From the IMG/VR virus record IMGVR_UViG_3300037189_010305, positions 1 to 29,208 of that record: a stretch of DNA of 29,208 bases; one strand, 5' to 3'. This document shows, one piece after another, positions 17,367-28,694 of the stretch (positions are counted from its first letter, which is position 1; every line of letters starts with the position of its first letter). Origin of the DNA: a virus. Position numbers and translations under genes: made by a program. The notes beneath the pieces are model-generated. The model saw only the letters and a list, made by a program, of their open reading frames with translations. It searched no databases and was not told where the DNA came from.

Positions 17367-18001
17367 CTATCTCTCCTCCGCCTTTCCCGCGCCGCGTGCT
17401 CGAGCTTCGCGATCGCCATGATCGCTGGCTTCAGATCGGACGGCGCCGTGTCGTAGTTCCGGCCGAAACGTCCGTTCAGCCGCGGCAGCAGCGCGCGCGG
17501 CACGGCCTCCCAGTTCGCCGGATCCGTGTTGCGCTTGTCGCCGTCCAGGCACTTGAGTGCCATGCCCTTCGGCAGCGGGCCGTTCAGCTCTTCCCAGCGG
17601 ATCAGGTGGACGGCCCGCCAGCGTGACTGCAGCGGCATGCCGTCGTGGATCTTGCGTTCGAGATAGCCATCCTTCGCCATCCGCTCGGTGCCGATCGGCT
17701 TGTAGAGCTTCACCGCAACGCCGCGCCGCTCTCCGGTCTTGAACCTGGTCGCCACGCTGTTCGGGTGGAAAGGCATGGGTTTGCCCTTGTTCCAGGACTC
17801 CATGCCCTTCTCGAACTGACCGGTGCGCCCGGTGAGCCAGCCGTTGCGCTTGCAGAGCGCGGCATAGTTCGACGGCGATACGTCGTTTCTGCCGAACAGT
17901 TGGCAGAACTCGGCGTGAGCCTCTCTCCGCAGGCGGTGCGCGTTGGCCTCGATCCACGCAAGCTCGGCACCGTTGTATTCGATGTGGCGGCTCCGGCTCA
18001 T
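17363..18001 (-). CDS. HNH endonuclease family protein
   Basis: This 212-residue protein has an N-terminal helical DNA-binding-like part (about 1-75) and a C-terminal HNH-type fold: AVHLIRWEELNGPLPKGMAL followed by LDGDKRNTDPANWEAV. The histidine (HLIRW), Asp/Asn block and final Asn fit phage HNH nucleases of the GPLPKGM type. The usual second metal-site His pair is replaced by KC, as in part of this family, so activity is uncertain. ATG 18001 overlaps the preceding gene's stop (ATGA). Longer readings upstream are Arg-rich shadows. In an early left operon such nucleases may be homing-type passengers. Confidence 0.75.
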   Translation of the reverse strand: MSRSRHIEYNGAELAWIEANAHRLRREAHAEFCQLFGRNDVSPSNYAALCKRNGWLTGRTGQFEKGMESWNKGKPMPFHPNSVATRFKTGERRGVAVKLYKPIGTERMAKDGYLERKIHDGMPLQSRWRAVHLIRWEELNGPLPKGMALKCLDGDKRNTDPANWEAVPRALLPRLNGRFGRNYDTAPSDLKPAIMAIAKLEHAARERRRRDR

Positions 18002-18237
18002 TGCTCTTTCATCTCGATCTGCATAAACGGCACCTTCACGAACCCGCCGTGATCGGCAGCGAGCTGCACCGCCTTCAGCTGCACCCCGGCATTCGCCACG
18101 ATGCAATCGGCGACCGCGACCACGGCCTGGGCGCGGGTGACTTCCTTCTCGATCTCCTCGGGCGTCAGGCTTTCGTCCGAGAGCCGCTCGAGCTGGGCGA
18201 ACAGATGGTCGTTGAGGTCGGTGAGCTTGTTCTTCAC
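17998..18237 (-). CDS. Small helical protein of unknown function (79 aa)
   Basis: GTG 18237 overlaps the upstream gene's stop as GTGA, and its own stop overlaps the HNH start. The sequence (KNKLTDLNDHLFAQLERLSDES, then TPEEIEKEVTRAQAVVAVADCIV) is typical of small phage proteins near regulatory genes, with two helices, an acidic first half and a hydrophobic Ala/Val-rich middle. No enzyme motif is visible. It may bind another protein; no role can be assigned. Confidence 0.65.
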   Translation of the reverse strand: MKNKLTDLNDHLFAQLERLSDESLTPEEIEKEVTRAQAVVAVADCIVANAGVQLKAVQLAADHGGFVKVPFMQIEMKEQ

Positions 18238-18437
18238 GGCGAGGGGCTTCCGTCCTTCGTCTCGTTGATCGCAGGCATGATGCGTTTCCTCACGCGCGGC
18301 GGAGGGTGATCGTGCGTGAAGCCGCCGTCGAACTCTTCCACTTCGGCGCCACGGCCAACCGCGAAAACCGCAGCCGCCATGAACCCGATGCATAGGCCGC
18401 AGAAAAAGATCACCGCGCCGTAGATCAATTCAGTCAT
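18234..18437 (-). CDS. Small single-pass membrane protein (67 aa)
   Basis: ATG 18437 opens with MTELIYGAVIFFCGLCIGFM, a transmembrane helix running to about residue 25. A short acidic and His/Pro-rich cytoplasmic or periplasmic tail (FDGGFTHDHPPPRVRKR) follows. The gene overlaps both neighbours (8 bases upstream, 4 downstream). Small early membrane proteins of temperate phages sometimes act in superinfection exclusion, but nothing here proves that. Confidence 0.6.
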   Translation of the reverse strand: MTELIYGAVIFFCGLCIGFMAAAVFAVGRGAEVEEFDGGFTHDHPPPRVRKRIMPAINETKDGSPSP

Positions 18438-19322: not shown

Positions 19323-19444
19323 GCCAGCACCAACAGCGCGTAGGCGACGGCGGCAATTGCCGTCAGCGCTGCAAGGCAGCCGAGATCGTCAGCAAGCGTT
19401 CCGGGGGTGGTGTTGAGCGCCTTTGCGCGGCGGGGGTGAAGCAC
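19319..19444 (-). CDS. 41-residue membrane peptide, first gene of left operon
   Basis: A GGAGG (complement of 19450-19454) lies five bases before GTG 19444. The reading ends in TGA overlapping the ATG of the HD gene. The peptide has a basic start (LHPRRAKAL) and one C-terminal transmembrane helix (LAALTAIAAVAYALLVLA). An in-frame ATG at 19456 is possible, but it lacks a ribosome binding site and would leave a leader of about ten bases after the promoter, so GTG is preferred. Function is unknown; translation may serve mainly to couple the next gene. Confidence 0.5.
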   Translation of the reverse strand: MLHPRRAKALNTTPGTLADDLGCLAALTAIAAVAYALLVLA

Positions 19445-19473
19445 GGGAGCCTCCATCGGGGTGATGGAGGAGG

Positions 19474-19502
19474 ACAATACGGAACGTATTAACTTATGTC
19501 AA
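19474..19502 (-). promoter_or_regulatory. Early left promoter (PL-like)
   Basis: On the minus strand TTGACA (complement of 19497-19502), 17 bases, then TATTGT (complement of 19474-19479). The -35 is perfect and the spacing ideal. Two operator palindromes overlap the -35 and -10 elements. It should drive the HD-to-integrase operon and be shut off by the repressor. Confidence 0.8.
19476..19490. promoter_or_regulatory. Left operator 1 (AATACG-GAA-CGTATT)
   Basis: This is a perfect 6+3+6 palindrome covering the -10 element and spacer of the left promoter. The same sequence occurs in the repressor/cro intergenic region, so it is a probable binding site for the repressor and Cro. Confidence 0.8.
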
Positions 19503-19515
19503 TACGAAACGTATC
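19501..19515. promoter_or_regulatory. Left operator 2 (AATACG-AAA-CGTATC)
   Basis: This palindrome has one mismatch, in the outermost position. Its centre is 25 bp from left operator 1, and it touches the -35 of the left promoter. The 25-bp spacing is the same as in the right operator region. Confidence 0.78.
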
Positions 19516-19876
19516 ATGGCGTAAGCCGGTTCAATGCCGCCTGCATATCCATAGAGGATTCTGAATTGTTGATCGGGGTAACCTTCTCGAAGGCGCTGCC
19601 GCCGTTGGACACCAGCACCAGATCGCCGACAACGCGTGTCTGGTGTTTCACCGGGATCACGGTAAACGTGGCCCGAACGTCAACCGTGGGATCGTAGGTT
19701 GTGCCCAGAAGCATGTTCGCCGTCTGCTTTGTGATCGTGTACTGCCGGTTCACCAGCTCGGTGAGCAGGGCAGACTGAACCCTGTCGGGTGGGGCATTGA
19801 AGGTGCGCTCGGCTTTCTGGCTTGGCGTGTTATGCTGCACCTGGGCCGCGCAGCCTAACGTGAGAAGCCCTAGACA
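19514..19876 (-). pseudogene. Lipoprotein-like gene lacking start and signal-peptide beginning
   Basis: The frame ending at 19514 reads, from just after an in-frame TGA, LGLLTLGCAAQV and then about 105 further residues of a mixed alpha/beta protein (DRVQSALLTELVNRQYTIT, TRVVGDLVLVSN). TLGC is a lipobox and the residues before it look like the end of a lipoprotein signal, yet no ATG, GTG or TTG lies between the TGA and the Cys. The only start is GTG 19840 after the lipobox, giving an unexported 108-residue product. It begins inside the 3' end of the repressor gene, so a recombination junction probably removed the 5' end. The position downstream of the repressor, as for lambda rex, suggests expression in lysogens. 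Confidence 0.6.
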
Positions 19877-20520
19877 TCACGCTTGTAGATAGCGATAACC
19901 CGGCCAAGAATGCTGACCTCGACCTCGCGGTTTCCGTCGTCCAGCCGCAGCGGCGTCTGCCAGCGGGGATCTGATGACTCTGGCCATAGTTGCCATCCCT
20001 TCTTGCTTTGCCGGGCGCGTTTCAAGGTGACTTCGTAGGTAGTGCCGCGTTGCCGCTTCACGACTAGCAGGTCTTCATCCTTGATCTCGGCCCCCATGTG
20101 TGACCAGTCGGCGACGATAACATAGTCCCCTGGTTGTGCAACCTTGTTCATTGACGTTCCGACAACCTTGAGCGCGTACTGGCGGCAATGCACCCAGCGG
20201 CTGTCTGGTGCAACGGGTATGTGCTCGAGAATTTCCTGGTCGCCATCGATTTCGAGCCATGATCCAGCCCGCACTTCGCCCACCACGGCGATCTGCGGCG
20301 GTTCGTTTGCGTGTTCCTGCCCTTTCCCGAACAGGAGCCATTCAGGCGATGTGTGGAAGAACCGGGCGTACCTGATGGCGTCTTGCTCATCAAAACTCCT
20401 GCTGCTGTTCTCATGGGACGTAAGAGTCGGGATTGCCATGTTCATGGCCCGTGCGGCCTCGGCGGCGGACTTGTAGCCGGCCTGTTCCCGGGCGCGCCGC
20501 AGTCTCTCGTGTTTTTCCAT
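19870..20520 (-). CDS. CI-like repressor with S24 (LexA-type) peptidase domain
   Basis: This 216-residue protein keeps the lysogenic state by binding operators and is inactivated by self-cleavage after DNA damage. The N-terminal HTH (AAEAARAMNMAIPTLTSHEN, residues about 19-38) binds DNA. The probable cleavage point is Ala85-Gly86 in VGEVRAGSW. The catalytic dyad is Ser123 in GTSMNKV and Lys155 in LLVVKRQ, as in LexA and lambda CI. ATG 20520 follows GGTGGGGA at the right distance; longer readings run into the operator region. It is transcribed away from cro and is probably autoregulated through the operators at 20544-20608. Confidence 0.9.
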   Translation of the reverse strand: MEKHERLRRAREQAGYKSAAEAARAMNMAIPTLTSHENSSRSFDEQDAIRYARFFHTSPEWLLFGKGQEHANEPPQIAVVGEVRAGSWLEIDGDQEILEHIPVAPDSRWVHCRQYALKVVGTSMNKVAQPGDYVIVADWSHMGAEIKDEDLLVVKRQRGTTYEVTLKRARQSKKGWQLWPESSDPRWQTPLRLDDGNREVEVSILGRVIAIYKRDV

Positions 20521-20541
20521 GTCCCCACCCTGCCGAGTGAC

Positions 20542-20570
20542 TGAATACGAAGGGTATTGACTGCAGCCAA
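20542..20570 (-). promoter_or_regulatory. Repressor promoter (PRM-like)
   Basis: On the minus strand TTGGCT (complement of 20565-20570), 17 bases, TATTCA (complement of 20542-20547), with the repressor ATG 22 bases further on. The element overlaps the opposite-strand cro promoter almost completely, so the two polymerases compete. It is covered by the first operator and part of the second. Confidence 0.6.
20544..20558. promoter_or_regulatory. Right operator 1 (AATACG-AAG-GGTATT)
   Basis: 6+3+6 palindrome with one mismatch at the innermost pair. It overlaps the -10 of the repressor promoter and the first base of the cro -35. Confidence 0.78.
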
Positions 20571-20585
20571 TACGTGTCGTATTGA
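20557..20585 (+). promoter_or_regulatory. Early right promoter (PR-like)
   Basis: TTGACT (20557-20562), 17 bases, TATTGA (20580-20585). It should drive cro and, past the terminator, the CII/GcrA/replication operon. Operator 20544-20558 reaches the -35 and operator 20569-20583 fills the spacer and -10. Confidence 0.78.
20569..20583. promoter_or_regulatory. Right operator 2 (AATACG-TGT-CGTATT)
   Basis: Perfect 6+3+6 palindrome, or 7+3+7 including the flanking C and G. It lies between the -35 and -10 of the cro promoter and abuts the repressor -35. Its centre is 25 bp from right operator 1. Confidence 0.82.
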
Positions 20586-20593
20586 TCTGGGGC

Positions 20594-20608
20594 AATACCA
20601 ACGAGAGC
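20594..20608. promoter_or_regulatory. Right operator 3, degenerate half site (AATACC)
   Basis: Only the left arm is recognisable. Its centre would fall at 20601, again 25 bp from the preceding operator, so a weak third site is plausible. It lies just upstream of the cro start. Confidence 0.45.
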
Positions 20609-20614
20609 GCGGTC

Positions 20615-20806
20615 ATGACGGGAGACGACATTCGCCAGATAAGGGCCGCTCGGGGCTGGTCCCAGCGACAGCTTGGCGAGCACCTCGGCATCGAGCAGGC
20701 GACCATTTCCCGGCTTGAGAATGGAGAATGGAAGCCTTCGCGGCCCGTTCTGCGCCTTCTCGAAATGCTGAAGGCTGCCGACAGCTCATCGCCCGAGGCC
20801 GCCTGA
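20615..20806 (+). CDS. Cro-like HTH regulator
   Basis: This 63-residue protein is almost entirely one XRE-type helix-turn-helix (IRQIRAARGWSQRQLGEHLG, then EQATISRLENGEWKPSRP). It diverges from the repressor across the operator region, which is the place and size of Cro. It probably shuts off the repressor and later the early promoters. ATG 20615 is 30 bases after the -10; the ribosome binding site is weak (GAGAG). The stop overlaps the next ATG (TGATG). Confidence 0.85.
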   Translation: MTGDDIRQIRAARGWSQRQLGEHLGIEQATISRLENGEWKPSRPVLRLLEMLKAADSSSPEAA

Positions 20807-21102
20807 TGGCGAGCTCACACATCAAGCTAACCATCGACACATCGACGTTTCGGGACGCGGTTTCAGCGCTTGAGCATGCGATTGAGCCGCGCAATCTGCC
20901 GGGCGATCTGTGCCTTGCCCTCGGAAAAATCGCCCTGCATCTCTTTGAAAATGGCCGGGCCGTCAAACTGCGTGCCGGTCCCGCACCCGGCACAAACGAA
21001 ATGACCGTCTTCATGGAGCCAAGCGAGGCTTTTCTCGGCCTGCTGTCCGCAATTCGGGCATGTAACGGTGAAGACGGCGGCTTCGGTGGTGGACATGGTT
21101 GA
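20806..21102 (+). CDS. Possible 98-residue protein downstream of cro
   Basis: ATG 20806 overlaps the cro stop as TGATG, which favours translation. The sequence (SSHIKLTIDTSTFRDAVSAL, FMEPSEAFLGLLSAI) is not obviously random, yet it lies almost wholly opposite a zinc-ribbon gene on the other strand that looks more like a real protein. Hand-counted third-position G+C is about 61 percent, lower than the opposite reading at about 73 percent. The end is low-complexity Gly. It may be real, or only the first 20 codons may derive from a once longer gene. Confidence 0.35.
   Translation: MASSHIKLTIDTSTFRDAVSALEHAIEPRNLPGDLCLALGKIALHLFENGRAVKLRAGPAPGTNEMTVFMEPSEAFLGLLSAIRACNGEDGGFGGGHG
20863..21096 (-). 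CDS. Zinc-ribbon protein (CPNCG...CAGCG)
   Basis: This 77-residue protein has two CxxC pairs, VTCPNCGQQ at about residues 12-18 and FVCAGCGTG at about 34-40. They are spaced as in the small phage and bacterial zinc-ribbon proteins that read CPHCG-x-x-T-K-WL...CAGCG. The C-terminal half is a charged helix (EGKAQIARQIARLNRMLKR). AAGAGA seven bases before ATG 21096 serves as ribosome binding site. It runs against the surrounding early right genes, towards cro, so it could be a lysogeny-expressed or antisense-acting gene. Function is unknown; DNA or RNA binding is possible. Confidence 0.65.
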   Translation of the reverse strand: MSTTEAAVFTVTCPNCGQQAEKSLAWLHEDGHFVCAGCGTGTQFDGPAIFKEMQGDFSEGKAQIARQIARLNRMLKR

Positions 21103-21227: not shown

Positions 21228-21259
21228 GGGCGGAGCCCAACAAGCTCCGCCCATTTTTT
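21228..21259 (+). terminator. Intrinsic terminator after the cro region (tR1-like)
   Basis: A nine-base-pair perfect stem (GGGCGGAGC at 21228-21236, GCTCCGCCC at 21244-21252) with a seven-base loop is followed by ATTTTTTC. The T run lies only on the plus-strand side, so it ends rightward transcripts from the cro promoter before the CII-like gene. The opposite strand has no T run after the stem. Confidence 0.88.
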
Positions 21260-21357: not shown

Positions 21358-21837
21358 ATGACACAACCAAGACCTCCCCTTGAACTGAAAGCCTTCTATC
21401 GGGACCTGGTGATTGCCTGCGGCGGGCCGAAGCGCGCCGCCGAGATCACGGGCGGTCAGGCGTCTCACATCTCTGAAGCGATGGCGGCCCACCATCTGGA
21501 CCGCTGGCCGCGCATCGATCAGGTCGCCCTTCTCGAGGCCGACTGCGGGCAGCCCATCGTCACGGCGGCGCTTGCCGACCGCAGCGGCTACTCCCTGAAC
21601 TCCGTGACCGCGTCCGACGCGAACATCTCGCCGCTGGCCCACCTGCACCGCATCGTGTCGGAGGTGCGCGACGTCGAGTGCGGCATCCTCCATGCCATGC
21701 AGGACGGCCAGCTGACGGCCGCCGAGCGCCGCGACACCCGCCGCCAGGTGCAGGAAGCGATCGCCGCGCTCAACGCGCTGTGCGCCGACCTCATCGACAC
21801 CGCTGCCGTCGCGCGCGTCGTGAAGCCGGGGGCGTGA
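21358..21837 (+). CDS. CII-like regulatory protein
   Basis: This 159-residue protein has an N-terminal HTH-like part (LKAFYRDLVIACGGPKRAAE, ITGGQASHISEAM) of the kind annotated in alphaproteobacterial phages as CII-type or YdaS-like regulators, followed by helical segments to the end. The position (after cro and its terminator, first gene of the replication operon) matches lambda cII. It may activate establishment of lysogeny, but that is inferred from place. AGGAA lies seven bases before ATG 21358. A longer reading from 21109 crosses the terminator and is rejected. Confidence 0.65.
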   Translation: MTQPRPPLELKAFYRDLVIACGGPKRAAEITGGQASHISEAMAAHHLDRWPRIDQVALLEADCGQPIVTAALADRSGYSLNSVTASDANISPLAHLHRIVSEVRDVECGILHAMQDGQLTAAERRDTRRQVQEAIAALNALCADLIDTAAVARVVKPGA

Positions 21838-21839
21838 TC

Positions 21840-22640
21840 ATGTCTCAGCGCTACGGCGAATGGACGGCGGAGCACGACCAACTGCTGCTGTCGCTGCTCG
21901 GGGAGAATCTTTCCTCTGCACAGATCGCGGCCCGCTTCGGCAAGTCGCGGAGCGCCATTTGCGGTCGCGTTTACCGGCTGCGCGACAAGGGCCAGATCGA
22001 CGCGCCATGCGCGCTGCAAGGCACCAAGGCGGTGTCGCTGCGCGTGGGAAAGCCGCGCAGCCCGGGCCTTGCGCATGTGCCGCTGATCAAGGCGCGGCTC
22101 GAGCAGGGCGCCACCGACCGCGAGATCGCCTCCGAGATCGGTATCCACGCCGAGGACGTGCGCTATGCCCGGCGCGTGTCCGGGTTGCCCGGCACGATCC
22201 GCCCTGCGGGGCTGCCGGCCAATGCCGAGGATGTGACCCGCCTGGTGGCTGAGGGCAAGAGCGACCCGCAGATCGCCGACGAGCTGTCGATCACTGTTTG
22301 GCAGGCCCGCAACACCCGCCGCCGACTGAAGCTCGGCGCACCCGCAGCGCCGCAGCAGCGGCCGATTAGCAACATGGTGGCGGGTGATTCCGGAAAGAAG
22401 GTCGAGCGCTGTTTTACCGAGGGCTTCATGGGGCAGGCCTCGCGCCTGGACCTGGTTGACATGCCGCGCTCGGGCGCGTGCCGGTTCCCGATCGACCAGC
22501 CCGACGGCGCTGTGCGCTACTGCGGCGACCATGCGGGCGATGGCGAGAGCTACTGCGCGGACCATGCCGCGCGCTGCTACACGTCAGCGGTGCCGAGGAA
22601 GCCCCTGCTGCGCAATCACCTTTCCGCAGGGAGACGCTGA
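21840..22640 (+). CDS. GcrA-family regulator with extra HTH segments
   Basis: Residues 7-52 (WTAEHDQLLLSLLGENLSSA, then QIAARFGKSRSAICGRVYRL) match the N-terminal DNA-binding domain of GcrA. Residues about 201-247 (SRLDLVDM, CRFPI, VRYCGDHA, YCADHA) match its C-terminal domain, with the Cys/His pattern of that region. GcrA is the alphaproteobacterial cell-cycle regulator that binds methylated GANTC sites and sigma-70 RNA polymerase. Here a segment of about 100 residues with two further HTH-like units (TDREIASEIGIHAEDVRYAR; SDPQIADELSITVWQARNTR) separates the two ends, so the protein is about 90 residues longer than host GcrA. It probably alters transcription of phage or host promoters. ATG 21840 lies just after the CII-like stop. 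Confidence 0.8.
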   Translation: MSQRYGEWTAEHDQLLLSLLGENLSSAQIAARFGKSRSAICGRVYRLRDKGQIDAPCALQGTKAVSLRVGKPRSPGLAHVPLIKARLEQGATDREIASEIGIHAEDVRYARRVSGLPGTIRPAGLPANAEDVTRLVAEGKSDPQIADELSITVWQARNTRRRLKLGAPAAPQQRPISNMVAGDSGKKVERCFTEGFMGQASRLDLVDMPRSGACRFPIDQPDGAVRYCGDHAGDGESYCADHAARCYTSAVPRKPLLRNHLSAGRR

Positions 22641-22834
22641 TGCCGACTATTCACGACAAGCTGAAGCTGGCCTTCGTGCACCAACACCCGGATGACGGGC
22701 TCATGCTAACCGTAACAACGCGGAACGATCAGAAGTTTGACATGGTCCTGTCGCCGCAGGCAACGGCGATGCTGCTGGGGCAGCTTGCCGAGGGCCTGAA
22801 GGATGTGCTCAGGCCAATGAAGGTGCTGCCATGA
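22640..22834 (+). CDS. Small protein of unknown function (64 aa)
   Basis: ATG 22640 overlaps the preceding stop (TGATG), and the end overlaps the next start (ATGA at 22831-22834). The sequence (KLKLAFVHQHPDDGLMLTVT, FDMVLSPQATAMLLGQLAEG) suggests beta strands followed by an amphipathic helix. I do not recognise a family. It is an early-operon protein of unknown role. Confidence 0.65.
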   Translation: MPTIHDKLKLAFVHQHPDDGLMLTVTTRNDQKFDMVLSPQATAMLLGQLAEGLKDVLRPMKVLP

Positions 22835-23652
22835 GCGCGCTGCGACCTCTTGCCAGGCCAGACGTTATCATTGCGCCTCCAAAAAGCGCGGGACGACCGC
22901 CGCGTCTCGACTTCCTGCCGCTCTCGAAGCTTCGCATTGATGACGTCTATCAGCGCCCGATCGAGCGTCGCGGCATCGCAACCATCGTCAGGATCTGCAA
23001 CGAGTTCGACTGGAACCGGTTTTCGCCGCTGATCGTGGCCCCGGTGCCGGGAACCGACGTGTTCGCGATCATCGACGGGCAGCACCGAGCGACCGCCGCT
23101 TTGCTGCTTGGGTACGAAAAGGTGCCCTGTGCCATCGTCGAGGCCCATGCGCGAGACCAGGCGGCGATCTTCACGGCGGTGAATGGCAACGTCACACCGG
23201 TTTCCATCCTGCAGCTGTTCAAGGCGGCCCGCGCGGCTGGCACGGAATGGGCCGTGACGCTCGACCAGGTCTGCACTGCGGCGGGCCTCACGCCGCTGGT
23301 CTATCCCAAGCCCAAGAGCGCCATCAAGCCGTTCGAAACGATGGCGATCGGCACGCTCCGCCGCAACATCGCGCGCTTTGGCGCCAAGCTGGTCACCACG
23401 GCGTTGAGCCAGGCTGCGCGGCAGCCTGGCGCGGGTGAGCCCGGGTTCTGGAACTCGTACGCCGTCGACGGTGCGGTCATGAACTTTCGCCCTGCCCAGC
23501 AGAGACCGTCTGCAGATGGTGCCGCAGCCGCGACGCCGATGGCCGAGCGCATCCGCGCGCTCAAGGGCAGGGGCTACACGCGCTTCGCCATCCAGGCGTC
23601 GCTTGGTGTGAAGCTGGCCGACATCGAGGACGCGCTGAGAGGGGAGCCCTGA
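22831..23652 (+). CDS. ParB/sulfiredoxin-fold protein (DUF6551-like)
   Basis: This 273-residue protein has the ParB N-terminal nuclease-like fold: a first segment LPLSKLRIDDVYQRPIER (about 30-47), WNRFSPLIVAPV, then IIDGQHRATAALLLGYEKVP with the GQHR catalytic-like motif at about residues 84-87. The rest is helical and ends in a small HTH-like portion (YTRFAIQASLGVKLADIEDAL). Phage proteins of this type are usually regulators or nicking-type accessory proteins near replication genes rather than partition proteins. No ParA partner is present. It is coupled to both neighbours by overlaps. Confidence 0.8.
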   Translation: MSALRPLARPDVIIAPPKSAGRPPRLDFLPLSKLRIDDVYQRPIERRGIATIVRICNEFDWNRFSPLIVAPVPGTDVFAIIDGQHRATAALLLGYEKVPCAIVEAHARDQAAIFTAVNGNVTPVSILQLFKAARAAGTEWAVTLDQVCTAAGLTPLVYPKPKSAIKPFETMAIGTLRRNIARFGAKLVTTALSQAARQPGAGEPGFWNSYAVDGAVMNFRPAQQRPSADGAAAATPMAERIRALKGRGYTRFAIQASLGVKLADIEDALRGEP

Positions 23653-24287
23653 TGGCGCAAAACACATCATCCGCGGTGATGCAGCAACGAGCGGAGCCGC
23701 ATGATTCGCTTGACGATTTCCCGACCCCACCGTGGGCTGCCCGCGCGCTCATGGAGCATGTCGTCAAGATACACAAGAGCGCCTCGCTATGGGAGCCCGC
23801 GGCGAACCGTGGGTTCCTTCTGCGCGGGCTTGCGGATTACTTCGGGTCGCGGCGGGCAAGCGACATCTTCGACTATGGGTTCGGGTTCGAGCGCTGCGAC
23901 TATCTGTTCGAGCCTAAGCCGGAAGGGGTTGATTTCATCATCACCAACCCGCCGTTTCGGCTAGCGCACTCGTTCATATGCAAGGCACTGCAAGAGGCAC
24001 GGATCGGGTGCGCGGTTTTGGTGCGCACGTCGTTTCTTGAAGGCGTCAACCGCTATGATTCCCTATGGAGCCGGACCCCGCCGACCTTTGTGGCGCAGTT
24101 CGCCGAGCGTGTGCCGATGGTAAAGGGGCGCTGCGACCCGAAGGCATCAACGGCGACCAGTTATTGCTGGATCGGCTGGATGCGCAATGTCGAGCGCATG
24201 CCGATGCTGTGGATCCCGCCGTGCCGGGCGAAGCTCGAGCAGCCTGGAGACTATGACCTCCCGCAGGTGGGTGCGTCATGCCGATAG
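23652..24287 (+). CDS. Adenine-specific DNA methyltransferase
   Basis: This 211-residue protein has the phage N6-adenine methyltransferase layout: DDFPTPPWAARAL at the start, the SAM-binding LWEPAANRGFLLRGL block (about 46-60), and the catalytic TNPPF (residues 98-102). The later SYCWIGW segment (about 170-176) is also shared by this group. It transfers a methyl group to adenine in DNA, for protection from restriction or for regulation. The recognition sequence cannot be read from the protein. Two genes upstream is a GcrA-like regulator, whose host relatives read adenine methylation. No restriction partner is present. Confidence 0.85.
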   Translation: MAQNTSSAVMQQRAEPHDSLDDFPTPPWAARALMEHVVKIHKSASLWEPAANRGFLLRGLADYFGSRRASDIFDYGFGFERCDYLFEPKPEGVDFIITNPPFRLAHSFICKALQEARIGCAVLVRTSFLEGVNRYDSLWSRTPPTFVAQFAERVPMVKGRCDPKASTATSYCWIGWMRNVERMPMLWIPPCRAKLEQPGDYDLPQVGASCR

Positions 24288-24493: not shown

Positions 24494-24768
24494 TGGTCCA
24501 TGCTGCAACCAGGACTGCCGACTATCAGGAGATCGTCGCGTGTCCCATCTTCCGCATGGCGTACGACGAGATCTGGCGGGGCGAGGGATCATCTGTAGAC
24601 CGCCGCTGGAGCGATGCCGAGCAGCTGTCCTATGAGCGCGGCCGGCAGTTCGGCATTTATGTACTGACCGAGGAAAAGCAGCGCGTGCCGTTGATGAAAG
24701 GCCCTCTCTGCCACCCGCGCGCATCGCTCCTGTTGATGATGGCCTTCATGTCGGGGGACGTGCTGTGA
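24493..24768 (+). CDS. Small protein of unknown function before primase (91 aa)
   Basis: The sequence (ADYQEIVACPIFRMAYDEIW, AEQLSYERGRQFGIYV) is helical and reads like a real small phage protein. The same type of protein with an RGRQFG motif precedes replication genes in other alphaproteobacterial phages. Its stop overlaps the primase start (GTGA at 24765-24768). No catalytic motif is seen. Confidence 0.65.
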   Translation: MVHAATRTADYQEIVACPIFRMAYDEIWRGEGSSVDRRWSDAEQLSYERGRQFGIYVLTEEKQRVPLMKGPLCHPRASLLLMMAFMSGDVL

Positions 24769-25973
24769 GCCATCGCGACCCGGCATTCGAGGAGTGGATC
24801 GAGGAGGCGCGCGGCATGCGGATCGAGCGCGCGCTGGACCTGGTCGCAGCCTCGCACGTGATCTCGCGCAAGACCCGATACGTCGGGCCGTGCCCCGGCT
24901 GCGGCGGCACCGACAGGTTCTCGCTGAACATCAAGAAGAACATCTTCTGGTGCCGCAAGAGTGCGGAGGGCGGTGATGCCATTGCCCTGGCGCGGCATGT
25001 TCATGGCTGCGAGTTCCTCGAGGCCGTCGAAATGCTGGCGGGGCGGCCCGCGCCAGGGCGCACGGTTTCCGAAGAGGAACGCCAGTCCCGTGCCAGGCGC
25101 GTGGCCGAGCTCGAGGCGAAGCGCAAGGCGGAGTCCGCGCGGATGGCGGCGGAGGAGAATGAATTCCGCCAGAAGGAGATCAGCCGGGCACGGAAGATCT
25201 GGAAGGAGGCCGGGCCGATCGACGGATCCATGGCCGAGCGATACCTGGCGCATCGCGGACTTCGCGCGCATCAGGGGGCGAAGCTGCGCGCGGCCTCCGA
25301 CCTTCCCTATTGGCACAACATCGATGGCGAGTGGAAGGTGATCCACTCCGGCCCTGCCATGGTGGCGGCGATCGTCGGCCGCAGCGGCGTGTTCCAGGGC
25401 TGCCATGTGACGTGGATCGAACCCGCTCTGGCCACCAAGTCCGGCAAGGCGGAGATCGTGCACCCGGTGACGGGCGAGCTGCTCGACGCAAAGAAGGTGC
25501 GGGGCTCGCAGAAGGGCGGGCACATCCACCTCGGCGGCCCGCCATTGCCCGTCGCCACGCGGCTGGTGGTGGGCGAGGGGATCGAGACGGTGCTTTCGGT
25601 TCAGTGCGTGGAGACGAGGGAGGGGCCCATGCCCTGGACGCTCTACTGGTCGAGCGTGAACCTCGGCAATCTCGGCGGGCGCAGTGCGGGCGCCGTGCCG
25701 CACCCGACTTTCACCCTGACCGATTCCCTTGGCCGCACCCGCGCCGTGCGCGTGCCGGGGCCGGACCCTGACTTTGCCGATGACGCCACGCTGGCGCCGC
25801 CGGACCATGTGGACAGCATCCTGCTGCTGGGAGATGGTGACAGCGACCGGCTTGCCACGCGCAACACGCTGCTGCGCTTTGCCAGGCGCTGGGCCATGCC
25901 GGGCCGCGTGATCCGCGCCGCCTGGGCGGATGAGGGCTGCGACTTCAACGACATGCTGCGAGGTGAAGCGTGA
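24765..25973 (+). CDS. DNA primase with zinc-binding and Toprim domains
   Basis: This 402-residue protein makes RNA primers for phage DNA synthesis. The N-terminal zinc region reads GPCPGCGGTDRFSLN and FWCRKSAEGGD (Cys43, Cys46, Cys63); the fourth Cys of the usual CxxC pair is Ser, as in part of this phage group. A charged helical linker (about 105-160) follows. The Toprim part has VVGEGIETVLS (Glu at about 270) and SILLLGDGDSD (about 353-361), the conserved acid residues for metal binding. It starts at GTG 24765 overlapping the previous stop, and its end overlaps the helicase GTG (25970). Primase plus helicase forms the replication core. Confidence 0.88.
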   Translation: MSHRDPAFEEWIEEARGMRIERALDLVAASHVISRKTRYVGPCPGCGGTDRFSLNIKKNIFWCRKSAEGGDAIALARHVHGCEFLEAVEMLAGRPAPGRTVSEEERQSRARRVAELEAKRKAESARMAAEENEFRQKEISRARKIWKEAGPIDGSMAERYLAHRGLRAHQGAKLRAASDLPYWHNIDGEWKVIHSGPAMVAAIVGRSGVFQGCHVTWIEPALATKSGKAEIVHPVTGELLDAKKVRGSQKGGHIHLGGPPLPVATRLVVGEGIETVLSVQCVETREGPMPWTLYWSSVNLGNLGGRSAGAVPHPTFTLTDSLGRTRAVRVPGPDPDFADDATLAPPDHVDSILLLGDGDSDRLATRNTLLRFARRWAMPGRVIRAAWADEGCDFNDMLRGEA

Positions 25974-27802
25974 GCGACCCCGAGGGAATCATCAAGGCGA
26001 TTGCGGACGCCGAGGAGCTTTCCTCCTCCGCCCATCAGCCTGAGGCAGCGGCTGCCGGTGGCCTGGAGCCTTCGGCTGGCGAATCGCCGCACGATGAGGC
26101 TGATGACCCCGGCGAGGTCTCGGCCGATGGCCTCAACATCAATTTCGACTTGCTGAAGGTCTGTGCCGCCGAGCCGCAGAACGATCTCGGCAACTCCCGC
26201 CGGCTGCGGCACCGCTATGGCACCGAGCTGATCCATGTGCAGAACGTAGGCTTCCATGCCTGGGACGGCCGGCGATGGGCCGAGGACGTCGACGGGCGGA
26301 AGACGAGGCCGTTCTGTCACACGACTGTCGAGGCCATCAAGTTCGAGCCGCTGGTGATCCTGCCCACCTCCGACGAGCAGGCGGAGATCGACAAGGCCGA
26401 GGATGCGATTACGCCGCTCGCGACAGCACGGCACCGGCTGGGCGAGCTGACATCGAAGGACGAGGAAGAGCGCCACCGGCTGCGGACCGAGATCGCAGCG
26501 CTCGAGGATGCCATCTCCCGCGGCCGCAAGGCGCAGGCGGCCGTGGCCGACCGAAGGGCCAGGCGGCGGCGATTCGCCGTGAGTTCCGGCAACTCCGGCA
26601 AGATCAGCGGCCTCCTGAACGAGACTGTCGCCTACATCTCCCGGCCTCTCGAGGATCTCGACAAGGACGCCCTCGCGCTCAACGTCTCGAACGGCACGCT
26701 GCGGTTCTCCGTCACCATGGTCGAGGATCTCGAATGCCCGGATCCCGACGTGAAGCGGCTGAAGCGCGTGGCGCATGTTCGCCTCGATGATCACAATCGC
26801 GACGACCTCATCACCAAGCTGGCCGACGTCGACTATCTGCCCAAGGCGCAGGCGCCGGTCTTCGAGGCATTCATCCGTGATGTCCTGCCGAACGAGGCCG
26901 TGCAGCATTTCGTGCAGCGCTACCTCGGCTATTGCCTCACCGCCCTGACCCGCGAGCAGGTCTTCGCACTGTTCCATGGCGAGGGCCGGAACGGCAAGTC
27001 GACGCTGGTCGATATCGTGGCAAAGATCCTTGCCGACTATTCGACCTCGGTGCCGATCTCGACGCTGGTCAATGACAGCCGCGGCGGCAAGGGCTCCGAG
27101 GCGACGCCTGACCTGGCCCGGCTGCCTGGCGCGCGCTTCGTGCGCACCGCGGAGCCGCGCGAGGGCCTCAGCTTTGACGAGAGCCTGATCAAGGGCCTCA
27201 CATCGGGCGAGCCCCTGCCGGTGCGCCGGCTGAACCAGGACTTCAACGACATCTATCCGACCTTCAAGCTGGCGATCTCGGTGAACCGCAAGCCGACCAT
27301 CCGCGGCAACGACGACGGCATCTGGCGGCGCGTGCTACTCGTGCCCTTCGACGTGCAGATCCCGATCGACAAGGTCGACAAGCAGCTCTCCGACAAGCTC
27401 TGGGCCGAGCGCTCAGGGATCCTCAACTGGCTGATCGCGGGCCTGACCGAATACCTCGAGCTCGGCGGCCTGAACCCTCCCGAGGAGGTCAGGGCCGCGA
27501 CGCAGGAGTATCGCGAGGAGAGCGATCTGATCGGCTCCTTCGTGCGCGCGGCCCTCGAGATCACCCGCGACGAGCTCGATCAGGTCGAGGCCGGGCGGCT
27601 CTATTCTGTCTTCGTCTCCTACTGCAAGCGGCAGGGCATCACGCCGATCAGCGGCACGACGTTCAACCGCCGCCTGCCAAAGGCCGCCGCGCAGTTCGGG
27701 TTCACCAAGGGCAAGTCTTCGATTTCCGTCTACTGCGGGTTGCGCGTCAGCGGCGAGTTCGCTGTCACCTCGCACACCCATGACGACAACATGGGAGGCT
27801 AG
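25970..27802 (+). CDS. SF3 / D5-type replicative helicase (phage P4-like)
   Basis: This 610-residue protein has an acidic, variable N-terminus (1-50), a D5-like N-terminal domain, a charged helical region (about 140-190) and the SF3 ATPase core: Walker A in FHGEGRNGKSTLVD (about 336-349), the following acid motif region (FVRTAEPREGLSFDESLIKG), and the sensor-type KLAISVNRKPTI with Asn (about 432-443). The C-terminus has a winged-helix-like part (YSVFVSYCKRQGITPIS). Such helicases load at an origin and unwind DNA with the primase. The start is GTG 25970 overlapping the primase stop. The last codons (NMGG, stop) are part of the first element of a repeat array that continues downstream. Confidence 0.88.
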   Translation: MSDPEGIIKAIADAEELSSSAHQPEAAAAGGLEPSAGESPHDEADDPGEVSADGLNINFDLLKVCAAEPQNDLGNSRRLRHRYGTELIHVQNVGFHAWDGRRWAEDVDGRKTRPFCHTTVEAIKFEPLVILPTSDEQAEIDKAEDAITPLATARHRLGELTSKDEEERHRLRTEIAALEDAISRGRKAQAAVADRRARRRRFAVSSGNSGKISGLLNETVAYISRPLEDLDKDALALNVSNGTLRFSVTMVEDLECPDPDVKRLKRVAHVRLDDHNRDDLITKLADVDYLPKAQAPVFEAFIRDVLPNEAVQHFVQRYLGYCLTALTREQVFALFHGEGRNGKSTLVDIVAKILADYSTSVPISTLVNDSRGGKGSEATPDLARLPGARFVRTAEPREGLSFDESLIKGLTSGEPLPVRRLNQDFNDIYPTFKLAISVNRKPTIRGNDDGIWRRVLLVPFDVQIPIDKVDKQLSDKLWAERSGILNWLIAGLTEYLELGGLNPPEEVRAATQEYREESDLIGSFVRAALEITRDELDQVEAGRLYSVFVSYCKRQGITPISGTTFNRRLPKAAAQFGFTKGKSSISVYCGLRVSGEFAVTSHTHDDNMGG

Positions 27803-27811
27803 GGAGGGTAG
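27791..27811 (+). repeat. Short repeat element, direct copy
   Basis: The GGGAGGCTAGGGAGGGTAG form spans the final codons and stop of the helicase gene. The inverted partner at 28098-28118 is identical in 20 of 21 positions. Confidence 0.85.
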
Positions 27812-27898
27812 ATGCGCCATACTCGGGGCTTGCCTCCCAAGGGGTGCGGGGAAAAGGCAAGGAAAATCAAGACCCGGCTTTCACGAATGGGAGGCTAG
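27812..27898 (+). CDS. Possible 28-residue basic peptide inside the repeat array
   Basis: ATG 27812 follows the GGGAGGGTAG of the first repeat, which offers a ribosome binding site, and the frame closes at the TAG of the long direct repeat. The peptide is basic (KGCGEKARKIKTRLSR) and ends in MGG, exactly as the helicase does, because both ends fall in the same repeat. Translation is uncertain. Confidence 0.25.
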   Translation: MRHTRGLPPKGCGEKARKIKTRLSRMGG

Positions 27899-27918
27899 GG
27901 AGCCTAGGGAGGGTAGAG
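27887..27918 (+). repeat. Long repeat element, direct copy
   Basis: This 32-bp element begins ATGGGAGGCTAGGGAG, then CC and TAGGGAGGGTAGAG. It matches the inverted copy at 27993-28024 at 30 of 32 positions, so the transcript could form a stem of about 30 bp with a 74-base loop. Confidence 0.85.
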
Positions 27919-27992
27919 TCGCGCGTTACACATAGAGAAGGAGTGCTGTGCCTGTGCCGAGACTGCCGTCGTATCTATTGAAAATCATTACA

Positions 27993-28024
27993 CTCTACCC
28001 TCCCTACACTCCCTAGCCTCCCAT
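27993..28024 (-). repeat. Long repeat element, inverted copy
   Basis: The minus strand reads ATGGGAGGCTAGGGAG, then TG and TAGGGAGGGTAGAG, differing from the direct copy only in two adjacent bases (TG for CC). It ends 25 bases before the start codon of the next gene and so lies in its leader. Confidence 0.85.
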
Positions 28025-28049
28025 AGGAAAAAAGATAGGAGATAAAACA

Positions 28050-28694
28050 ATGGCTTGTGAAACAGCTTTTATGGGAGGCAAGGCAAACGGCGGAAAGCTA
28101 CCCTCCCTAGCCTCCCACAAGCCCGATTTGAGGCGTGACATCACGGCTTGGGGCGCCCTGGTCTGGGCTTACGCCGATGAGATCGTGCTTGCGGCCTCAT
28201 CAATGGGTGGCTCGAACTTCCCGTCCCCTAGTCTGGCGATGAGCGGCCTCGGCCGGGAGCGGATAAGCGGCGGCCTGATCAATGGCTGGTATGAGCCGCA
28301 CCAGGATGCCCACACCATCAATGCGAAGCTGGCGGAATGGTTTGCTCACGATGGCTACGCTCTGTGCCAGGTCATGGCACATGCGGAGAGGCGCAAGCAG
28401 CTGCCGCGCGAGATCACCTTGCCGAGGGTGAAGGCGCTGCCTGTCTATGACCGGCAGGGCAATGTACTGATCGAGCGCCGCCGCGCGCACCGCAATGGCA
28501 GGGTCATCACCGAATATTGCGTGCTCGATTACGATGGCATCGATCACCGCGAGGCGGATCGCCGTGAGCAGGCTTGGCGCGACATGCACACGATGTTCCT
28601 CGCCTTCCTCGATGTGATGGAAGGCTTCGAGCTGAGCAAGTGGAAGGTCAAGGGCAGGGGCTTGACGAGCGTCTGCGAATCATTGACAAGGTAA
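28050..28694 (+). CDS. Early/late boundary protein of unknown function (214 aa)
   Basis: ATG 28050 follows TAGGAGA at a good distance. The first 30 residues contain two repeat elements of the array. The body (RRDITAWGALVWAYADEIVL, ERISGGLINGWYEPHQDAHT, AKLAEWFAHDGYALCQVMAHA, then YDRQGNVLIERRRAHRNG with a strand-rich end) is a mixed alpha/beta protein with no motif known to me. Genes in this place in lambdoid phages include late-gene activators and ArpU- or antiterminator-like proteins, so regulation of the packaging and structural genes is a possible role. That is inference only. Confidence 0.65.
   Translation: MACETAFMGGKANGGKLPSLASHKPDLRRDITAWGALVWAYADEIVLAASSMGGSNFPSPSLAMSGLGRERISGGLINGWYEPHQDAHTINAKLAEWFAHDGYALCQVMAHAERRKQLPREITLPRVKALPVYDRQGNVLIERRRAHRNGRVITEYCVLDYDGIDHREADRREQAWRDMHTMFLAFLDVMEGFELSKWKVKGRGLTSVCESLTR
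28098..28118 (-). repeat. Short repeat element, inverted copy
   Basis: The minus strand carries GGGAGGCTAGGGAGGGTAG inside codons 17-23 of the following gene (LPSLASH region). The element is therefore kept in both coding and non-coding sequence. Confidence 0.85.

Follow-up and report, generated by a model that had tools for sequence, protein, structure and literature searches.

A phage-borne GcrA-family protein with two inserted helix-turn-helix units, a possible sigma-70 cofactor with a changed aim

The stretch of DNA analysed here, the window, comprises the 29,208 bp of virus record IMGVR_UViG_3300037189_010305. Besides the genes discussed below, it carries genes for a tape measure protein, tail and tail fibres as well as for an endolysin and an integrase; it is a temperate phage. 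Its helicase has its best relatives, at 35-42% identity, in phages of Aurantimonas, Rhizobium and Rhodobacter, so that the host is probably an alphaproteobacterium. Rfam and tRNA scans returned no matches.

The gene of interest is an open reading frame of 266 amino acids on the plus strand, running from an ATG at 21840 to a stop at 22640. It belongs to a rightward block that opens with a CII-like activator gene (21358..21837; phrog_101, E 8.3e-15; PF06892, E 7.4e-7), whose stop lies 2 bp ahead of its start. Its own stop overlaps by one base with a small gene (22640..22834) without a match in family searches. There follow, all on the same strand, a ParB-like gene (22831..23652; phrog_1033, E 1.7e-19), a DNA methyltransferase gene (23652..24287; phrog_799, E 1.5e-47; no Pfam hit) with an NPPF motif in its translation, a primase gene (24765..25973; phrog_510, E 5e-67) and a D5-type primase-helicase gene (25970..27802; phrog_1156, E 6.4e-116; PF08706). 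The original prediction had placed a GcrA-like regulator at precisely 21840-22640, as the second gene of a right early operon, and both details agree with our gene map, in which the block follows the repressor region. From its position, the gene would be expressed early.

Upstream, a strong intrinsic terminator (21228..21252, plus strand), formed by a 9-pair stem with 8 GC pairs and a subsequent T run, lies between the block and a Cro-like HTH gene (20606..20806, plus strand; PF13560, E 5.8e-13). The latter forms a cassette with a CI-like S24 repressor gene (19870..20520, minus strand; PF00717, E 4.9e-11). The stretch that separates the Cro-like gene from the terminator encodes, on the minus strand (20863-21096) and opposing the rightward genes, a zinc-ribbon-like small protein. 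Further to the left, a minus-strand ORF of 131 amino acids (17998-18393) that overlaps an HNH gene matches phrog_2044, 'RNA polymerase beta subunit' (E 1e-23).

Both ends of the protein had been assigned to GcrA, an unusual activator that works in association with sigma-70 and is guided by the methylation of DNA. Failure of profile or structure searches to place the ends in this family had been named as grounds for dropping the assignment; these searches were run and placed both ends there. Pfam PF07750 matches with 61.7 bits (cut-off 26.9; E 1.3e-16) from residue 7 to 250, covering profile positions 2-148 of 155, as expected for a member of the broad family. A PDB sequence search likewise has GcrA as its best match (7ye1_G, E 5.9e-5), with hits to the N-terminal and the C-terminal end. 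Profiles of the DNA-binding domain (DBD) and the sigma-interacting domain (SID) made from bacterial GcrAs alone match two separate pieces of the protein, residues 8-47 (E 1e-6) and 212-254 (E 3e-10), respectively.

The N-terminal domain, a W-HTH of the GcrA type (residues 5-54 approximately, 21852..22001), was modelled by AlphaFold from 36 sequences together with the rest of the protein. For 44 of its residues, the distance to 5yiv_A, the GcrA DBD on methylated DNA, is 0.9 A, at a sequence identity of 39% (Z 6.7); since other helix-turn-helix (HTH) proteins reach similar Z values, the family call at this end rests on the sequence evidence. The C-terminal domain (residues 201-250 approximately, 22440..22589) is modelled with a pLDDT of 85-94 and resembles 5yix_B, from the solved complex of GcrA with sigma domain 2, to which 47 residues can be fitted at 2.3 A (Z 6.2; Foldseek probability 1.00). 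All four positions of its Cys/His signature (C, CG, YC..H) are retained as C214, C228, C239 and H242. With the whole model, Foldseek found no match in the PDB at E <= 0.001, and at a pTM of 0.35 the model leaves the relative placing of the domains unfixed.

The identity of the protein parts is near certain. The protein is nevertheless no canonical orthologue: it scores 36.5 bits against the NCBIfam equivalog NF050816, whose cut-off is 280, and carries two HTHs between DBD and SID, where canonical proteins have a linker without further domains. Caulobacter crescentus GcrA (PF07750; 5yiv, 5yix, 7ye1) shows the same order of W-HTH and sigma-interacting domain and the same Cys/His signature, with an unstructured linker, residues 46-107, connecting the two domains (PMC7403470). 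It is shorter (173 versus 266 amino acids), having this linker where the window protein has its two HTHs, and differs at two further points taken up below, a recognition-helix Asn that is Ser in the window protein and a Trp of the CRWP motif that is Phe.

The two inserted units, three HTHs in all, had been predicted as well and are borne out by profile and model. The first, HTH 2 (residues 78-118 approximately, 22071..22193), consists of helices 80-88, 93-100 and 104-114 with a pLDDT of 91-96. The second, HTH 3 (residues 128-168 approximately, 22221..22343), is matched by Pfam HTH_23 at 134-168 and consists of helices 129-137, 143-149 and 153-165; its pLDDT in the whole model, about 67, is below its value when residues 70-176 are folded alone, where both three-helix HTHs recur at about 84-91. 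The gap between the DBD and SID profile matches amounts to 164 amino acids, versus 18-94 (median 63) in 74 of the 75 other viral GcrAs, namely those with both domain matches.

A duplication of the GcrA DBD as the source of the middle HTHs was considered and ruled out by comparison of the units. HTH 2 scores at z 5.5 against HTH 3, but either of them reaches only z of about 1.3-2.2 against the N-terminal HTH 1, while still higher scores link HTH 3 to the second unit of the phage protein L003 (z 15.0) and HTH 2 to a unit of the viral-contig protein L175 (z 8.2). L003, a phage protein of 199 amino acids, contains two HTHs whose order matches that of the inserted pair, to which it aligns co-linearly at 37% over 92-165; it is, unlike the window protein, without a sigma-interacting domain. 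Given this likeness to the L003 units and not clearly to HTH 1, the middle has the appearance of a double HTH from a phage set inside a GcrA. A 'transposase' of Synechococcus phage Yong-M3-232 (140 amino acids, 35%) combines a W-HTH with an HTH and also has no sigma-interacting domain. In structure comparison, the middle pair reached its best Z, 6.5, with single HTHs, and no specific double-HTH relative stood out. L175 (1482-2462) itself encodes 326 amino acids with five consecutive HTH repeats.

GcrA-family proteins are known from phages, among them phiCbK gp222, proteins of CcrRogue, DMCA, Ssp-JY42 and ct2G2228, and Pam5 gp57. Published accounts cover phiCbK-like phages (PMC3556154), Atu_ph08 gp5 (PMC6630229), Pam5, with a suggested role in the lysis-lysogeny switch (PMC9382816), S. 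meliloti prophages (PMC12429752) and a coral-associated phage (PMC11309003), and a tblastn search with host GcrA matched 39 phage records. For comparison, we assembled 99 GcrAs, i.e., 75 viral-contig, 16 host and 7 phage-record proteins and the window protein; the viral scan had found 84 loci, 80 of which were kept, yielding the 75 distinct proteins. Extra HTHs occur in four of the 99 and in none of the 16 host proteins. Besides the window protein with two, these are BAJUN_00520 of Brevundimonas phage vB_BgoS-Bajun, with tandem W-HTHs, and the viral-contig proteins L129 and L143, with the additional unit before and after the DBD, respectively. Each of these three has one extra HTH, which matches the GcrA DBD profile itself, whereas the two of the window protein are of another type. 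In the set of seven phage-record proteins, to which Bajun belongs, two inserted HTHs did not occur; Atu_ph08 gp5 is known to us from the literature alone.

Among 50,697 phage records, tblastn with the window protein found no match at 0.01 and only weak partial ones at 10; from plasmids, a single weak match came up, which belongs to an ordinary GcrA. The genome_contigs search matched the middle segment alone, in an alphaproteobacterial MAG, and of 385 alphaproteobacterial genomes 73 matched, where the matches listed were all partial and many lay at ordinary GcrA sites. Viral scans with A4, A6, A7 and L143 revealed no further three-HTH GcrA besides that of the sister phage described below. The scan that gave the 75 proteins required the canonical recognition-helix pattern, so that proteins like ours would be missed by it. 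In the control genome of Sulfolobus acidocaldarius, outside the alphaproteobacteria, Pfam GcrA was also found above cut-off. No description of a GcrA with added HTHs was found in the parts of the literature searched, and the three-module build appears to be undescribed before. As a phage GcrA the window protein is ordinary; in its build it is unusual.

PF07750 has no match in five of the phages nearest by helicase (AmM-1, RR1-A, RcapNL, Pthi1 and Mae-JY02; 18 records scanned), which is why the gene seems to have been added to the block. It has a close counterpart in a sister phage, contig L002, where the cII-like/GcrA block is 99.4% identical. Six bases differ between the two GcrA-like genes, and five of these changes are synonymous, versus about 26% expected for random base changes; the chance of at least five in six is about 0.006, or about 0.02 counting transitions only. 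The sole amino-acid change among the 266 residues affects T193 in a disordered linker, and the C-terminal domains are identical. This excess of synonymous changes supports, modestly, that the protein is in use and under purifying selection in the two phages. A frame artefact or a chance ORF was ruled out, as ends and middle match independent families and the gene is conserved in the sister phage.

In contrast to the block, the repressor/Cro cassette is wholly different between the two: approximately 19435-20784 of the window is replaced by 2622-3945 of L002, with other CI-like and Cro-like genes, sharp borders and flanks of about 99% identity on both sides. To judge from their sequences, the two probably form a heteroimmune pair. 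Because the sister phage keeps the GcrA-like gene next to a different cassette, the protein is probably independent of the operators of the cassette, and the sites that it reads are probably located elsewhere than in the immunity region.

With slightly better than even confidence, we take the protein for a divergent GcrA-family member that is carried by a phage and serves as a sigma-70 cofactor with a changed aim. The profile and structure matches at both ends, the retained Cys/His positions, the two further HTHs, the synonymous changes between the two phages, the place in the cII-like/replication block and the cassette swap in L002 favour this reading. Against it stand the identity to host GcrAs of only 23-31%, the equivalog score far below its cut-off, the lack of a Foldseek match for the whole model, the pTM of 0.35 and the C-terminal motif, CRFPIDQPDG as compared to CRWPIGDP, in which Phe replaces the usual Trp, so that the sigma contact may be weak or different. 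Retention of both ends together with an altered sigma-binding motif would also suit an antagonist. Such a protein would take up sigma domain 2 or the sites of GcrA but not activate, and host GcrA transcription would be dampened as a result; or it would simply repress promoters of the phage, HTH repressors being common among phages. We consider such a function quite unlikely, given that the four Cys/His positions and the fold of the domain are all retained and that the gene adjoins an activator-like gene outside the repressor cassette.

A changed aim of the presumed cofactor is suggested by the added HTHs and by the recognition helix. There, the window protein has a Ser at a position that is Asn in all 16 host GcrAs. 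Six aligned phage-record proteins show Ser in three cases (phiCbK, CcrRogue, DMCA), Asn in two and Ala in one; of the aligned viral-contig GcrAs, 71 of 72 have Asn, although the pattern by which these were retrieved favoured Asn. The motif of GcrA activation is YGAKTCG (PMC7987155). It occurs nine times in the window, versus 28 +/- 5 expected from shuffles, and not once in the intergenic stretch preceding the cII-like/GcrA block. GANTC is strongly under-represented as well, with 34 sites versus 71 +/- 7 (third-order model) or 133 +/- 11 (first-order model), and of the seven intergenic sites, according to the gene list made for this analysis, not one falls into the interval from the terminator to the cII-like gene. 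Genomes of CcrM-bearing hosts are usually low in GANTC, and the scarcity by itself is therefore compatible with a GANTC role. Taken together, the scarcity of YGAKTCG, its absence before the block and the replacement of Asn by Ser in the recognition helix speak against a simple role of this kind. No target site of the protein was found, another point against the cofactor reading.

Alternatively, the protein could be a stand-in for host GcrA, driving methylated GANTC promoters and pushing the cell into replication, with the extra HTHs merely strengthening DNA binding. Such a role has been proposed by the phiCbK authors for the phiCbK homologue (PMC3556154), the modelled DBD differs by 0.9 A from the structure of GcrA with methylated DNA, and a tree of both GcrA domains groups the window protein with phiCbK and CcrRogue (support 0.84), then with Bajun and L160. 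This grouping is weak: the tree comprises 95 of the 99 proteins (L153, L154, L161 and Pam5 were dropped for weak domain match) and 99 columns, and the window protein sits on a long branch. We regard a stand-in as unlikely in view of the Ser, of the low identity to host GcrAs, and of two further HTHs of another type, for which a plain substitute has no need.

Pairing of phage GcrAs with adenine methyltransferases was not supported among the 75 viral GcrA loci, where the motif [DN]PP[YFW] occurs in nine of 435 neighbouring ORFs, at least one of which is probably not a methyltransferase. In the window, the methyltransferase gene is the third after the GcrA-like gene, and in Caulobacter phage DMCA an adenine methyltransferase gene is likewise the third after GcrA.

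Around the point where the D5-type helicase gene ends, at the far end of the block, lies a repeat cluster (27791-28117). It is composed of repeats of 20-33 nt in both orientations with tandem 9-bp units GGGAGGCTA, six matches of which lie in the cluster and two weak ones elsewhere, where about one is expected in the whole window. The cluster is a candidate for origin iterons. It could also be the site of the GcrA-like protein, were this mainly a DNA-binding protein of replication or genome organisation with the C-terminal domain as a leftover. The block shared with ParB-like, primase and helicase genes would suit such a protein, as would the clustering of the units beside the helicase gene and the finding that one of the weak matches to HTH 2 in structure comparison is a ParB chain. 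However, repeats of this type are usually the site of D5/P4-type helicases themselves, and the supposed leftover is well folded and identical in both phages, so that we consider this explanation very unlikely.

We therefore return to the sigma-70 cofactor, for which the following mechanism is a reasoned guess whose functional steps we infer throughout. The template is GcrA, which holds sigma domain 2 and helps promoter opening (PMC7403470). By sequence and model, the layout is a GcrA DBD, two HTH units on flexible joints and a GcrA sigma-interacting domain. The protein would be produced together with the CII-like protein and the replication block. Its C-terminal domain would grip sigma domain 2 of the host and aid promoter opening as in GcrA, while the three HTHs would jointly read a longer or different site. 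Polymerase may thereby be drawn preferentially to delayed-early or late promoters of the phage and perhaps to some of the host; a role in the host cell cycle is possible.

On a wider scale, and more tentatively, the SID of GcrA may be a portable polymerase handle that phages have repeatedly fused to different sets of HTHs, as in the window, Bajun, L129 and L143, giving rise to sigma-70 cofactors with new targets. Here, a three-HTH cofactor, possibly reading the marks of the methyltransferase from the same block, would send polymerase to phage promoters. This would point to early activators in phages of a sort distinct from CII, Q and phage sigma factors. How GcrA chooses few among thousands of methylated sites is described as still unclear (PMC7987155). 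If phages swap the DNA-reading part and keep the sigma handle, their proteins would constitute natural domain-swap experiments on this choice.
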